Virus record (IMG/VR): IMGVR_UViG_3300027917_000092
Coordinates: 1 to 38,073 of that record
Source of the DNA: a virus
Strand: one strand, 5' to 3'
DNA: 38,073 nt
Shown here: piece by piece, positions 27,946-34,809 of the stretch
Numbering within the stretch: the first letter of the stretch is position 1
How the letters are laid out: each line of letters starts with the position of its first letter
The notes under the pieces: generated by a model
What the model was told of the DNA's origin: nothing
The model's input: only the letters and a program-made list of their open reading frames with translations
The model's database searches: none
Translations under genes and position numbers: made by a program

Positions 27946-28281
27946 CTACCAACGTTTACGTTGAAGGAATTTAACAAGTTCCCTTCGATTTTTAAGAAGG
28001 TCGAAAACTAAAAATTCGATAGTCGCGGCGAATTCTTCTGTCACTTGGTGGCCGAGTTCATTTTGCCAGTGATGGGCAATTTCGTGGATAAGGGTTTTTT
28101 GCACTTTTTCGATCGGCCCATCGGCGATAACAATCGCGCCCTGATTGGGATCATAGACTCCGAATTTATCCTTTAATACATCGACTTCGGGAACGAGGAT
28201 CAGATCAACACCGACGCCGATCGGATCAATTCTCTTAAATGGAAGCTTATGTTTAACTACTTTGGATTTTTTCCTTGGCAT
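27946..28281 (-). CDS. Small HExxH metallopeptidase-like protein
   Basis: 111 residues. 'KTLIHEIAHHWQNELGHQVTEEFAATIEFLVFDLLKN' contains HEIAH (66-70) and a downstream glutamate pair (E82-E83) that could complete a zinc site, as in gluzincins and ImmA-like proteins. The N-terminus is basic (MPRKKSKVVKHK). It may cleave a repressor or host factor, or be a packaging-region zincin of the type often seen in siphoviruses. It overlaps the SANT-like gene by 25 bases and abuts the terS reading frame. Confidence 0.7.
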   Translation of the reverse strand: MPRKKSKVVKHKLPFKRIDPIGVGVDLILVPEVDVLKDKFGVYDPNQGAIVIADGPIEKVQKTLIHEIAHHWQNELGHQVTEEFAATIEFLVFDLLKNRRELVKFLQRKRW

Positions 28282-31115: not shown

Positions 31116-31217
31116 TCATTTCCAGCGCCATACCAATGCCACAACACAGACAGCCAAATAAATAACCCAAATTAGAAACGCCCATTTAGCGTATGCCCTG
31201 TTGATACGATCAGTCAT
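31116..31217 (-). CDS. 33-residue single-helix membrane micropeptide
   Basis: The ATG at 31217 follows AGGTGATTCTATC. The peptide begins MTDRINRAYAKWAF and has one membrane helix (LIWVIYLAVCVVALVW) with RWK at the end. It starts just after the stop of an MTDAEK micro-gene (31225) and its first two residues after Met (TD) match that family, although the rest does not. No function known. Confidence 0.55.
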   Translation of the reverse strand: MTDRINRAYAKWAFLIWVIYLAVCVVALVWRWK

Positions 31218-31224
31218 GATAGAA

Positions 31225-31311
31225 TCACCTACACTTGTGCATAAGTGTCAACAGTTTGCCACGTGTCCAATTAACGATAAATTTCTTATTAGCTTTCTCC
31301 GCGTCAGTCAT
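31225..31311 (-). CDS. MTDAEK-family micro-gene, 28 aa (copy g)
   Basis: The ATG at 31311 begins MTDAEKANKKFIVNWTRGKL, sharing the MTDAEK header and its DNA text (19 bases, 31293-31311) with five other small genes upstream. It then departs from them and is basic. It seems to be a shortened or recombined member of the family. A weak ribosome site precedes it. Confidence 0.5.
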   Translation of the reverse strand: MTDAEKANKKFIVNWTRGKLLTLMHKCR

Positions 31312-31343
31312 CGCACACCACTTTGTCTGGGCCGCTAAAATCA

Positions 31344-31520
31344 TCACCTACAACTTGGCCAATTCTTCAATGCGTGGCTAGATTTCCGTAATCGCTTAAT
31401 CTCCTCCCTCAGCCGCTCCAGTTCGGCCAGGATGGTGCGGGCTGTACGTCCACTGATGCGCCCTTTAGCCTCATCGCCGCGCCAAGCAATCTCATCCAAC
31501 CTTTTCTCCGCGTCAGTCAT
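31344..31520 (-). CDS. MTDAEKRL-family small protein, 58 aa (copy f)
   Basis: The ATG at 31520 overlaps the previous stop as ATGA. The protein has both family motifs: the MTDAEKRL header, then a short variable part with W ('DEIAWRGDEAKGRISGRTAR'), then 'TILAELERLREEIKRLRK', a coiled coil, and a short tail. The DNA repeats for header (31500-31520) and coil (31410-31432) match those of its neighbours. At 58 residues it is easily missed by a 60-residue cutoff. Function unknown. Confidence 0.65.
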   Translation of the reverse strand: MTDAEKRLDEIAWRGDEAKGRISGRTARTILAELERLREEIKRLRKSSHALKNWPSCR

Positions 31521-31774
31521 GGCAATACACCCCCGGGCGTCTTGTAAAAAACATGGTCGTCGCCGCTCTTATACTTTGCCAATTCCTCCCGCAGCCGCTC
31601 CAGTTCGGCTAGGACTGTTTCCACGTCTCTGCCAACGGTGCCACCGCACCAGTATGGCGATTCACTGACTATCGACGGCTCTTCGCACTTGAGCCACTTT
31701 CGCCACATGGCTAGCCTTTTCTCCGCATCAGTCAGATTAGTGATAGATTTCTTATCAGTTTTCTCGCCGCTCAT
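31517..31774 (-). CDS. MTDAEKRL-family small protein with a second header, 85 aa (copy e)
   Basis: 85 residues that look like a mosaic. It begins 'MSGEKTDKKSITNLT', a header shared with copy a (33188-33391) through a 40-base identical DNA stretch, and runs straight into 'TDAEKRLAMWRKWLKCEE', the header of the other copies. The coil motif 'TVLAELERLREELAKYK' follows. The ATG is preceded by AAGGTG. The structure suggests that recombination between repeats fused two members. Function unknown. Confidence 0.68.
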   Translation of the reverse strand: MSGEKTDKKSITNLTDAEKRLAMWRKWLKCEEPSIVSESPYWCGGTVGRDVETVLAELERLREELAKYKSGDDHVFYKTPGGVLP

Positions 31775-31854
31775 GACAACACCTTGTAGACACTTGTTGA
31801 CAACTGTGTACGTTTAGCCACTGACAGCTTCTCAGGCTCGCTATTTGTACTCAT
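31771..31854 (-). CDS. 27-residue micro-gene after the methyltransferase
   Basis: The ATG at 31854 follows GGGGGGAGAAAAG, a strong ribosome site, and the TGA overlaps the ATG of copy e as ATGA. The peptide (MSTNSEPEKLSVAKRTQLST, then SVYKVLS) is polar. It may serve mainly to deliver ribosomes to copy e. No family recognised. Confidence 0.5.
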   Translation of the reverse strand: MSTNSEPEKLSVAKRTQLSTSVYKVLS

Positions 31855-31872
31855 CTTTTCTCCCCCCGCATT

Positions 31873-32661
31873 TCACTTACAAAAGTCGCCATTTTCTATT
31901 CCTTGTTGCAAGCGCACTGTTACTCGGCCCATTTGTACAGGATCTTCAGGACTCCTTGTGCTTTGGCTTTCGACATTCCCCAGGGCATTGGCTTCCACCT
32001 CCATTATCATTTTCCCCAGCATTTCCACTATCTGCGGCACTACGGCGTTTCCGAGGGCTCTAAGTCGGTCCACCCTATGGGGAACCCCATTAGAAACTCG
32101 AATTGCGCGGGCGTAATTTTCTGCCCCCCAAACGCCTTTGCATAATTTCGGCAGCTCGGCCAACGCCTCATTGATGGCGCTAGGAAGTTCGCTTTGGTTG
32201 TCGGTGTGTGCAATAAGCCACCAACGATGTCTCTGATGGTCCGCCCCCGCGTCAACAGCTCCAATACGCCGGCTGCAACAACATTCATATCCCGCCCCCC
32301 GCAAGTCTTGTCTTGCCCGTTTTATGGGCCCTTTGGCGACATTTTCCACTATCACCCAGTGTGGTCGGCACTCATCTAGTATTCGAAACATCTCGGGCCA
32401 TAAATCACGCACCACGCGCACGCCGTGACTCGCGGTGCTGAACGGCTGGCAGGGGAACCCCCCGCAAATAAGGTCAACTGGTTCAAGCGTCTCTTTGCCA
32501 ACGTCTTTCACATCCTCGTATCGCGGCACATCAGGCCAGTGCTTGGCGAGGACCTTCAGGCAGTAGGGATCCTTCTCTACCTGCCACCTGCATGTCATTC
32601 CTGCTCGCTCAAGTCCAAGGTCGAACCCTCCGATACCGGCGAATAGGCTCCCGAAAGTCAT
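31873..32661 (-). CDS. Cytosine-C5 DNA methyltransferase (orphan)
   Basis: 262 residues from the ATG at 32661, which has GGAGGT nine bases upstream; an in-frame ATG at 32700 lies within a direct repeat and lacks such a site. Motif I 'FAGIGGFDLGLERAG' (7-21), IV 'GGFPCQPFS' with catalytic C71, VI 'VIVENVAKG', VIII 'QRHRWWLIA' and X 'RLRALGNAVVPQ' are all present, so it should be active. The target-recognition part is short (about 150-195), as in phage Dcm-like enzymes. No restriction endonuclease is adjacent. It may protect phage DNA from host restriction. The last 35 residues look like added sequence ending in ENGDFCK, encoded by the repeat. Confidence 0.9.
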   Translation of the reverse strand: MTFGSLFAGIGGFDLGLERAGMTCRWQVEKDPYCLKVLAKHWPDVPRYEDVKDVGKETLEPVDLICGGFPCQPFSTASHGVRVVRDLWPEMFRILDECRPHWVIVENVAKGPIKRARQDLRGAGYECCCSRRIGAVDAGADHQRHRWWLIAHTDNQSELPSAINEALAELPKLCKGVWGAENYARAIRVSNGVPHRVDRLRALGNAVVPQIVEMLGKMIMEVEANALGNVESQSTRSPEDPVQMGRVTVRLQQGIENGDFCK

Positions 32662-32707
32662 GTGTCTGGGCACCTCCGCTTCATATAGGAAAGTCGCCAT
32701 TTTCTAT
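31882..32707. repeat. 18-bp direct repeat flanking the methyltransferase (31882-31899 and 32690-32707)
   Basis: AAAGTCGCCATTTTCTAT is identical at both places. On the minus strand both are read in the same frame as IENGDF: once in a tiny MTDAEKRL gene before the methyltransferase, once as the end of the methyltransferase itself. Confidence 0.8.
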
Positions 32708-32752
32708 CCACTTTTGCGAGTGGCTTCTCAGCCTTTTCTCCGCGTCAGTCAC
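32681..32752 (-). CDS. Truncated MTDAEKRL-family micro-gene (copy d), GTG start
   Basis: A GTG at 32752 opens a 23-codon frame reading VTDAEKRLRSHSQKWIENGD, then FPI. The header DNA (32732-32752) matches the other family members except that the start codon is GTG. The frame ends within the leader of the methyltransferase and contains one copy of the 18-base repeat that bounds that gene. It looks like a family member cut short when the methyltransferase arrived. Confidence 0.45.
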   Translation of the reverse strand: MTDAEKRLRSHSQKWIENGDFPI

Positions 32753-32993
32753 GTTCACGTTCCGCCTCCTCTCTGATTAGATCACAAACATGCCGCGCCC
32801 ACTTGGCAGAGTTGGCATCCATGGTTGTACTGTCGGGCGGGAACATGGTATCAGGATACCAGCCACGCACTGTCTCACATGCTCCCGGCCATCGTTTCAG
32901 CCGCTCCAGTTCGGCCAGGACAATTTCCAAGTCCTCCCATCCAGCATATTTACTTGCAGCGAAATTTCGCAACCTTTTCTCCGCGTCAGTCAT
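32745..32993 (-). CDS. MTDAEKRL-family small protein, 82 aa (copy c)
   Basis: 82 residues: header MTDAEKRLRNFAASKYAGWE, coil motif 'IVLAELERLKRW', then a unique C-terminal part ('ETVRGWYPDTMFPPDSTTMDANSAKWARHVCDLIREEAERERD'). The ATG follows GGTGGTAGGCC; it overlaps copies b and d at its two ends by 8 bases each. The extra domain makes it the longest member apart from the mosaic copy e. Function unknown. Confidence 0.65.
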   Translation of the reverse strand: MTDAEKRLRNFAASKYAGWEDLEIVLAELERLKRWPGACETVRGWYPDTMFPPDSTTMDANSAKWARHVCDLIREEAERERD

Positions 32994-33195
32994 GGCCTAC
33001 CACCCTGTTGAAGCAACAGCCGCCAGGATCGCCGCAGTATTTTTTATGTTCTTCTTCCAACATCCGCAGCCGATCCAGTTCGGCTTTAATGACGTGCCAG
33101 GCAGCGTGCGGTGTATCAGATATGCGATCCCCAGTCCGCCTTATTGGCATTTCTTTCTGGAAGAATTCATCCAGCCTTTTCTCCGCGTCAGTCAT
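32986..33195 (-). CDS. MTDAEKRL-family small protein, 69 aa (copy b)
   Basis: 69 residues: header MTDAEKRLDEFFQKEMPIRR, then 'AWHVIKAELDRLRMLEEEHKK', the coil in a more diverged form, then a cysteine-containing tail ('YCGDPGGCCFNRVVGHD'). The start follows GGAGGGATATAAGG. It overlaps copy a by 8 bases and copy c by 8 bases. The tail cysteines could bind metal, which other copies lack. Confidence 0.65.
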   Translation of the reverse strand: MTDAEKRLDEFFQKEMPIRRTGDRISDTPHAAWHVIKAELDRLRMLEEEHKKYCGDPGGCCFNRVVGHD

Positions 33196-33391
33196 CCTTA
33201 TATCCCTCCCATCGAGCCCAGTTTTTCCGATGTCTTATTTCGTCGCCTGCTTTTTTCGCGATTTTGCCTTCCATATCCGACTGATCAGTGTACCCCATTA
33301 GGCGCACCAACCAACGTTGCCACCACTGCCCTTTCTTTGCTCTAGTCAGATTAGTGATAGATTTCTTATCAGTTTTCTCGCCGTCCGTCAT
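33188..33391 (-). CDS. MTDGEK-family small protein, 67 aa (copy a)
   Basis: 67 residues from the ATG at 33391, five bases after the upstream stop and with GGGAGATGAGG before it; a longer in-frame start overlaps the upstream gene. It begins MTDGEKTDKKSITNLTRAKK, the header shared with copy e by a 40-base DNA repeat, and continues with a tryptophan-rich basic part ('WWQRWLVRLMGY', 'RKNWARWEGYKDD'). It lacks the LAELERL coil. Function unknown. Confidence 0.6.
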   Translation of the reverse strand: MTDGEKTDKKSITNLTRAKKGQWWQRWLVRLMGYTDQSDMEGKIAKKAGDEIRHRKNWARWEGYKDD

Positions 33392-33804: not shown

Positions 33805-34033
33805 CGTTCCCCTTCCCGAAGATTGGCTCAGAGAAATCGATGTATTGCTTATTCATCAAATTCTCAAGCACTTGTATTATTGCATTCATGTGGGCACATA
33901 TCCCAAGCGAGCAATAAATCATTGTTCTTTCAAGATTGTGAATTGTATTCGCCTCACTTGTCACTGGAAAAACATATCCCTTCAGTGACTCAAGCCTATT
34001 CAGCATTGCTTCGATCGGTCGATCACCCGGCAT
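33749..34033 (-). CDS. Hypothetical protein, 94 aa
   Basis: 94 residues from the ATG at 34033, chosen for its GGAGAGGAG leader. The core is helical ('PIEAMLNRLESLKGYVFPV', 'NTIHNLERTMIYCSLGICAHMNAIIQVLENLM') and the end is acidic and disordered ('NDDETTEDAAGQGEGDSET'). It overlaps its neighbours on both sides. No family recognised; the acidic tail could mimic DNA or bind a partner protein. Confidence 0.58.
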   Translation of the reverse strand: MPGDRPIEAMLNRLESLKGYVFPVTSEANTIHNLERTMIYCSLGICAHMNAIIQVLENLMNKQYIDFSEPIFGKGNDDETTEDAAGQGEGDSET

Positions 34034-34289
34034 TTTTTTTCTCCTCTCCGTAGAGCATTTGAGCAACTTTCACGTACAATTCCGATTCTTTAAGTCTTCG
34101 ATTTTCTTCCCGTAACCGCATCAGTTCTGCCGCACACAAGGAAAAAATATCACTGAAGCCCTCTTCATTGGGTACATCATCCACGAACCTACCTAATGCT
34201 TTCCATAACTTGTCTAACCCCACGTGAAATTGTTCTGGCGTTAAGCCATATAACTGATAACAAGCCTGCCTTTTCTCGACCTCATTCAT
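34023..34289 (-). CDS. Hypothetical protein with C-terminal coiled coil, 88 aa
   Basis: 88 residues: 'MNEVEKRQACYQLYGLTPEQFHVGLDKLWKALGRFVDD' then 'CAAELMRLREENRRLKESELYVKVAQML'. The header (M.xxEKR) and the later 'EL.RLREE' resemble the order of motifs in the MTDAEKRL proteins at 31225-33195, so it may be a distant relative. AAAGGGGAACAG precedes the ATG, and it overlaps the replication-type gene by 8 bases. Function unknown. Confidence 0.6.
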   Translation of the reverse strand: MNEVEKRQACYQLYGLTPEQFHVGLDKLWKALGRFVDDVPNEEGFSDIFSLCAAELMRLREENRRLKESELYVKVAQMLYGEEKKNAG

Positions 34290-34809
34290 CTGTTCCCCTT
34301 TCTTTAAAGAAAATCTCCTTGACCACTTCTCTGCCGATCATGATCCGCTCTCCGATGATTGCCTCTTCTTCGTTGAATATCGGATCTGTTATGGCTCTAG
34401 GTTTCGAATCTGCGAAATTGATTTGTGGATAACTTTTTCCTCTTTTCTCTCTTACTCTGTCTTCAGAGTTACAGAGTAACAGAGGGGAATTTTTGCAAGT
34501 TGCTTGCAAGTTGCTTGCATGTTGCAAGCATTCTGGCGTATCTTCAATGAATTCAACTTTCTTCAATAATTCTAAATCTGGTAACTCTTTCGCGTGAATC
34601 TCCGCCGCGAGGAATTCCGGATCCCACGGTAAACAGTTTTGATTCCTACTAGCAAGAACGCATAATAAGATTGCATGAGCTTTTGTGGCATCTGGGAGTT
34701 TGGCAAACGTTACCGACTTCAGAATCCGAGAATGGAGCTTGATCCAGGGTGGATTGCGATGTCGATAGTTTTGGTACTGATCGAAGTTCTTGATCTTGAA
34801 ATATCGCAT
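34282..34809 (-). CDS. Putative phage replication initiator/replisome organiser
   Basis: 175 residues. The N-terminal half ('FKIKNFDQYQNYRHRNPPWIKLHSRILKSVTFAKLPDATKAHAILLCVLASRNQN', then 'DLELLKKVEFIEDT') has the layout of winged-helix replication proteins of phages: a tyrosine-rich start, WIKLH, and a helix-turn-helix-like region. The DNA for residues near the centre contains a run of 11-base repeats and a strong inverted repeat, as expected if the origin lies inside the initiator gene. No helicase or polymerase gene is visible, so it would recruit host enzymes. GAGGGGAACAT precedes the ATG. Confidence 0.6.
   Translation of the reverse strand: MRYFKIKNFDQYQNYRHRNPPWIKLHSRILKSVTFAKLPDATKAHAILLCVLASRNQNCLPWDPEFLAAEIHAKELPDLELLKKVEFIEDTPECLQHASNLQATCKNSPLLLCNSEDRVREKRGKSYPQINFADSKPRAITDPIFNEEEAIIGERIMIGREVVKEIFFKERGTDE
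34452..34530. other. Candidate replication origin (inverted repeat plus iterons)
   Basis: TTACTCTGT (34452-34460) and ACAGAGTAA (34471-34479) form a perfect 9-bp inverted repeat. After a short T run come two exact 11-base repeats GCAAGTTGCTT (34495-34505, 34506-34516) and a variant GCATGTTGCAA (34517-34527). They lie inside the putative initiator gene, as lambda ori lies in gene O. Confidence 0.5.

Follow-up and report, generated by a model that had tools for sequence, protein, structure and literature searches.

Small phage genes in a tandem array, possibly reshuffled at short shared joints

An array of small minus-strand genes in the genome of a tailed phage suggests that small genes have been reshuffled at short shared joints. 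The window analysed here comprises the full 38,073 bases of an IMG/VR record, and its array is built around two short DNA blocks, a header found at gene starts and an internal coil block, both of which are nearly unchanged from copy to copy. We read the array as a translationally coupled set of small two-helix accessory genes, which were tandemly duplicated and then shuffled at the header and coil homologies, and give this reading an even chance; the exchange mechanism, the translation of every member, oligomerisation of the products and an accessory function are parts of it that we infer.

Coding in the window is mostly on the minus strand. Profile matches identify a terminase, a tape measure protein, a RecT-like annealing protein and a RecE-like exonuclease, and the portal and capsid genes were recognised via similarity to relatives of the terminase. 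Beside the small terminase, a small protein (27946-28281, minus strand) gives a near-threshold match to the DUF6782 putative metallopeptidase family (26.6 bits versus a cut-off of 27). The array is placed between a replication-like gene and the terminase region. Its core, together with the methyltransferase gene that it contains (31344-33195), has a GC content of 53.5% versus 46.7% for the whole window, ranking second among 363 overlapping windows, which suggests imported DNA. The unit bodies are patchy in GC (54-57% for e, b, c and the methyltransferase gene, 43% for h and 36% for a), and such a patchwork base composition fits segments joined from different sources.

The original prediction, made from the sequence without database searches, had listed seven small frames (copies a to g), all of which are present on the minus strand (Table 1), and had them follow one another with ATGA-type overlaps. 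Overlaps of 8 nt (ATGACTGA) do link g to f, f to e and e to d, and one of 4 nt links b to c, but there is no overlap between c and a when the MTD codon is taken as the start of a; likewise, the frames are present as described, but d and b are not adjacent, as a C5-cytosine methyltransferase gene, missed by the prediction, intervenes. Successive headers are spaced by 196, 202, 241, 209, 215 and 209 nt, the first 209 being the value after removal of 808 nt. After copy a lies a further frame of 33 residues with a hydrophobic stretch (31116-31217, minus strand), which begins with ATGACTGA (MTDRINRAYAKW...).

Table 1. Coordinates of the array members and of associated features
Feature	Position	Strand	Description
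Replication-like gene	34282-34809		phrog_26426, E=6.5e-8
h	34023-34289	-	Older diverged member, 88 aa; MNEVEKRQ header, AELMRLREE coil; outside the originally predicted array
g	33188-33391	-	Long-header copy MTDGEKTDKKSITNLTRAKKG, 67 aa from its ATG; stop codon inside f header
f	32986-33195	-	Header and coil, 69 aa; stop codon inside e header
e	32745-32993	-	Header, coil and extra C-terminal module, 82 aa
d	32681-32752	-	Short header copy, GTG start, 23 aa; ends within direct repeat flanking the methyltransferase gene
Direct repeat (41 nt), upstream copy	32680-32720	-	78% identical to downstream copy, 18-nt exact core
C5-cytosine DNA methyltransferase, alpha chain	31873-32661	-	ORF also readable from 32700; PHROG 363 E=1.5e-64; Pfam PF00145 E=1.2e-34
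Beta-type frame	32040-32288	-	82 aa; nested in methyltransferase gene at +1; motif IX (EFLMGFPIGWTDL)
Direct repeat (41 nt), downstream copy	31872-31912	-	Repeat copies 808 nt apart
k	31771-31854	-	Possible tiny frame, 27 aa; 4-nt overlap with b; coding uncertain
b	31517-31774	-	Long header continuing in frame into short header (CTG in place of start codon, 31735), and coil; 85 aa
c	31344-31520	-	Header and coil, 58 aa
a	31225-31311	-	Header joined to second half of long header, 28 aa (40 aa from GTG at 31347)

The header is a 21-nt element (ATGACTGACGCGGAGAAAAGG) on the minus strand, which begins, or sits within, six small frames (a-f), with copies at 33195, 32993, 32752 (GTG), 31735 (CTG, inside b), 31520 and 31311. 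At up to three mismatches it occurs six times, always in the array, where none is expected from 100 shuffles, and this bears out the predicted constant start, MTD(A/G)EK in most frames. Among f, e, d and c the identity is 0.98 over nucleotides 0-20, compared with 0.33 in the 20 nt upstream and 0.38 in the 20 nt downstream, and conservation sets in at the start codon itself, none of it lying upstream of the start. The silent positions of these four headers are identical, with a probability of about 3e-8 under the codon usage of the phage. Besides the ATG start, the header has a stop codon in each of the other two frames (aTGA and atgacTGA), and it provides the stop codon of the neighbouring gene, a feature that the prediction had missed: g, f and e terminate at the second TGA in the header of the next unit, and b terminates at the first. 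In b itself the upstream frame is in phase with the header, and the two are fused, leaving the header internal and its start codon as CTG.

A second block of 18-24 nt, encoding LAELERL, is common to b, c, e and f, in agreement with the (V/I)LAELERL-type coil predicted for these four copies. Its sequence is GCCGAACTGGAGCGGCTG in b, c and e, with a single change in f, and the identical silent positions of the three coils have a probability of about 4e-7 under phage codon usage; the coil leucine is encoded by CTG, which makes up just 6% of the leucine codons in the rest of the phage. In addition, g and b have in common, at the DNA level, a longer header (GEKTDKKSITNLT), of which a carries a diverged form; g matches both b and a (shuffle p=0.002). 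Copies a and d are without a coil. Beyond the coil and these short blocks, the unit bodies are without significant similarity, as had been predicted for the middle and end parts. A resemblance of the c tail to the methyltransferase gene at the protein level was followed up and discarded, the DNA match not being significant (p about 0.6-0.7).

A diverged copy, h, lies upstream of the array as originally drawn and had been overlooked. Its header is identical to the array header at 20 of 25 positions (the best background match outside the array reaches 17 of 25), its coil resembles that of c (shuffle p=0.002) with 21 of 27 nt identical when counted by eye, and it overlaps its upstream gene by 8 nt (ATGAATGA), as array members do. 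Judged by these sequence features, h is an older member of the array family.

The methyltransferase gene between d and b has a structure of its own. Motif IX (NPxWVEWLMGFPxGWTDL) is read in the +1 frame, never in frame 0 or +2, in all 81 sequences compared, namely that of the window and 80 relatives, whereas motif X is in the main frame, and the conserved W lies over a main-frame valine codon that is GTG in 36 of the 36 cases counted. Two-chain C5 methyltransferases of the M.EcoHK31I type need both chains for methylation. In M.EcoHK31I, one polypeptide carries motifs I-VIII and X and a second one motif IX (PMC3404938), and the window gene and its 80 relatives have the same motif split as this type of two-chain C5 methyltransferase. 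The apparent dual coding is conserved and matches the M.EcoHK31I layout, and this layout seems to be widespread in phages. The beta frame of the window differs from the M.EcoHK31I type in being short (82 aa): an in-frame stop near 32376 separates an apparent beta-type N-terminal part (32376-32501, minus strand; QLTLFAGGSPAS...) from the portion with motif IX, whereas one relative (L019) has an uninterrupted beta frame of 153 aa.

Relatives of the array were sought widely. Degenerate header patterns and protein and profile searches of IMG/VR gave single unrelated genes at most or no match, the exact header is absent from 84,980 genomes, and tblastn of b, c, e, f and g against 50,697 phage records returned only the C-terminal module of e and chance matches; such searches, with exact patterns or short proteins as queries, may overlook relatives that have diverged. 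In e, residues 40-76 align in the same frame with the C-terminus of Pseudomonas phage SS2019XI gp40 (43%, E=5e-3), while tblastn of e against plasmids yielded no relative and chance matches at most. A phage protein of PHROG 722 in another locus (L069:8041-8553) has the coil and a YP..FP-like stretch in common with e (38% over 37 residues) and is a possible distant source of the e module. The prediction had proposed looking for homologues among phage and metagenome proteins and for the same array with other copy numbers in related phages, and neither was found. The nearest terminases are only 43-49% identical, their phages are without such an array, start-anchored repeats turned up in the window alone, simple repeats aside, when 170 loci (1.78 Mb) were scanned, and a terminase profile search of genome contigs gave nothing. 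A repeat in one locus (L012) was considered as a comparable array and rejected, as it is not at gene starts. The prediction had held that a lack of homologues in related phages would speak against it; this lack is a formal one, since no close relative was found at all.

The family searches bear on the proposed anti-defence or host-takeover role, which they leave without direct support. PADLOC gave no match for array members, no member scored above the cut-off in Pfam or NCBIfam, the PDB gave no meaningful match, and PHROGs returned weak coil matches only, the best for an array member being c versus phrog_13697 (function unknown, E=0.0027). The phrog_1816 profile, considered as a family of c and h, gives matches at the same threshold in 11 of 14 control genomes and was set aside as uninformative. 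An anti-defence function is a possible and reasonable guess for a variable small-gene locus.

Header and coil share a frame in b, c, e and f although their separation varies by 15-48 nt. Each of b, c, e, f, g and h is open, whereas the probability of an open frame in resampled bodies is 0.008-0.10, and there are 3-7 stops in the +1 and +2 frames. Shine-Dalgarno-like pairing (-7 to -12 kcal/mol) is found ahead of g, f, e, d and c, is lacking before the internal header of b, whose start codon is lost, and is almost absent for copy a. The argument from openness is weakened because some antisense frames are nearly stop-free too, and codon-usage scores are weak for f, b, c, d and a (z -0.5 to 1.4), the methyltransferase gene, a certain gene, scoring only 0.9. 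Given these nearly open antisense frames and the weak codon usage, translation of the array members is likely rather than proven. Their products are probably small two-helix proteins, which may pair through the coil; a structure model of b has two helices (16-28 and 51-69) and a disordered linker, at a mean pLDDT of 58, a low confidence that is too weak for a fold search. Two longer plus-strand antisense frames, 32803-33345 (180 aa) and 32825-33301 (158 aa), span copies e and f and are probably a by-product of scarce stop codons, not genes.

The same observations bear on the alternative that the array is debris, that is, the decaying by-product of illegitimate recombination, in which the pieces of one former gene lie around an imported methyltransferase gene under little or no selection on their products. 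The coil-less stubs a and d, which may be remnants, speak for such decay, as do the weak codon-usage scores, the 41-nt repeat at the methyltransferase borders and the failure to find homologues; frames b, c, e, f, g and h have nevertheless all remained open, four copies have kept header and coil in frame, and Shine-Dalgarno-like sites still stand ahead of g, f, e, d and c. We regard this explanation as unlikely, yet deserving of serious consideration.

The predicted recent duplication holds in part. The header and coil blocks have been copied recently as DNA, because their synonymous sites are identical, but an even divergence of the variable parts afterwards is too simple: nearly unchanged blocks stand beside dissimilar stretches, and therefore segment exchange or replacement fits better than drift. 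The exchange reading rests on one genome, no second genome with the array having been found. In the proposed model, a founder gene of the same type as h, composed of a header helix, a variable linker and a LAELERL helix, would have been copied repeatedly as units of about 0.2 kb, header and coil would then have served as short homologous anchors for segment exchange, and a methyltransferase cassette would have been gained within unit d. The header would act as a gene joint, at which the ATG opens a new frame, the stops end an upstream gene arriving in either other frame, and termination would be coupled to re-initiation. The exchange would plausibly be carried out by the RecT-like annealing protein and the RecE-like exonuclease that the phage encodes. 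Phage Rad52-like recombinases are of relaxed fidelity (PMC3945230), amplification of a locus at short homologies is described for T4 (PMC9391042), and phage mosaicism has long been proposed to arise by recombination at short boundary sequences (PMC3029335).

The constant N-terminus on otherwise unrelated bodies could also be a targeting tag, MTDAEKRL sending different small proteins to one place, be it the capsid, a phage protein or a host partner. The internal proteins of T4 are a working example of such a tag (PMC9391042), and the older copy h retains M-x-x-x-EKR, but a tag leaves the second shared block and the identical silent sites unexplained and is at odds with the internal header of b; we consider it improbable. 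Slightly less probable again is that header DNA or RNA regulates the translation or transcription of several genes, the shared peptide being a by-product, for although its silent sites are identical at gene starts in a non-structural region, as has precedent in cluster K mycobacteriophages (PMC3203893), the element starts exactly at the start codon and within the coding part rather than upstream, no RNA structure was found around it, identity is just as high in the coil block within the genes, and the header of b is internal and without a start. A bolder version of shuffling at the shared blocks, for which we see only a slim chance, treats the header as a portable joint dedicated to gene capture by the phage, at which two frames would be stopped and the third restarted while the phage's annealing recombinase pastes foreign coding fragments into a growing array; such a system would be functionally like an integron array, the difference being that no site-specific integrase is involved here.

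If exchange at the header and coil is indeed how the array arose, the locus would be a visible intermediate in the creation of small phage genes, with two short anchors that agree even at silent positions, foreign-looking bodies between them and a phage that has its own annealing recombinase, and the boundary-sequence idea would become directly testable in one locus. A start codon together with stops in both other frames is a simple design for turning an inserted fragment into an expressed gene.

Several known systems resemble parts of the array. The internal proteins of T4 are packaged into the head and cleaved by the prohead protease. They are variable small proteins with a constant N-terminal capsid-targeting segment (PMC9391042). 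The array is alike in its constant N-terminal segment and differs in its overlapping frames and shared second helix. The start-associated sequences (SAS) of cluster K mycobacteriophages lie 3-7 bp upstream of the start, contain a Shine-Dalgarno core (AGGAG) and mostly precede genes with wide intergenic gaps (PMC3203893); the array likewise has a short repeat fixed at the starts of small non-structural genes (six copies), but its header begins at the start codon instead of 3-7 bp upstream, and its genes overlap. In mosaic phage genomes, boundary (or linker) sequences are short stretches of identical DNA at gene borders with unrelated flanks and have been proposed as homologous recombination sites (PMC3029335). 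The array shares with them a near-identical junction DNA (0.98 over 21 nt from the ATG) and non-homologous flanking genes, whereas its header is tandemly repeated in one genome and is itself coding, with start and stop codons, and the array adds a second, internal anchor.
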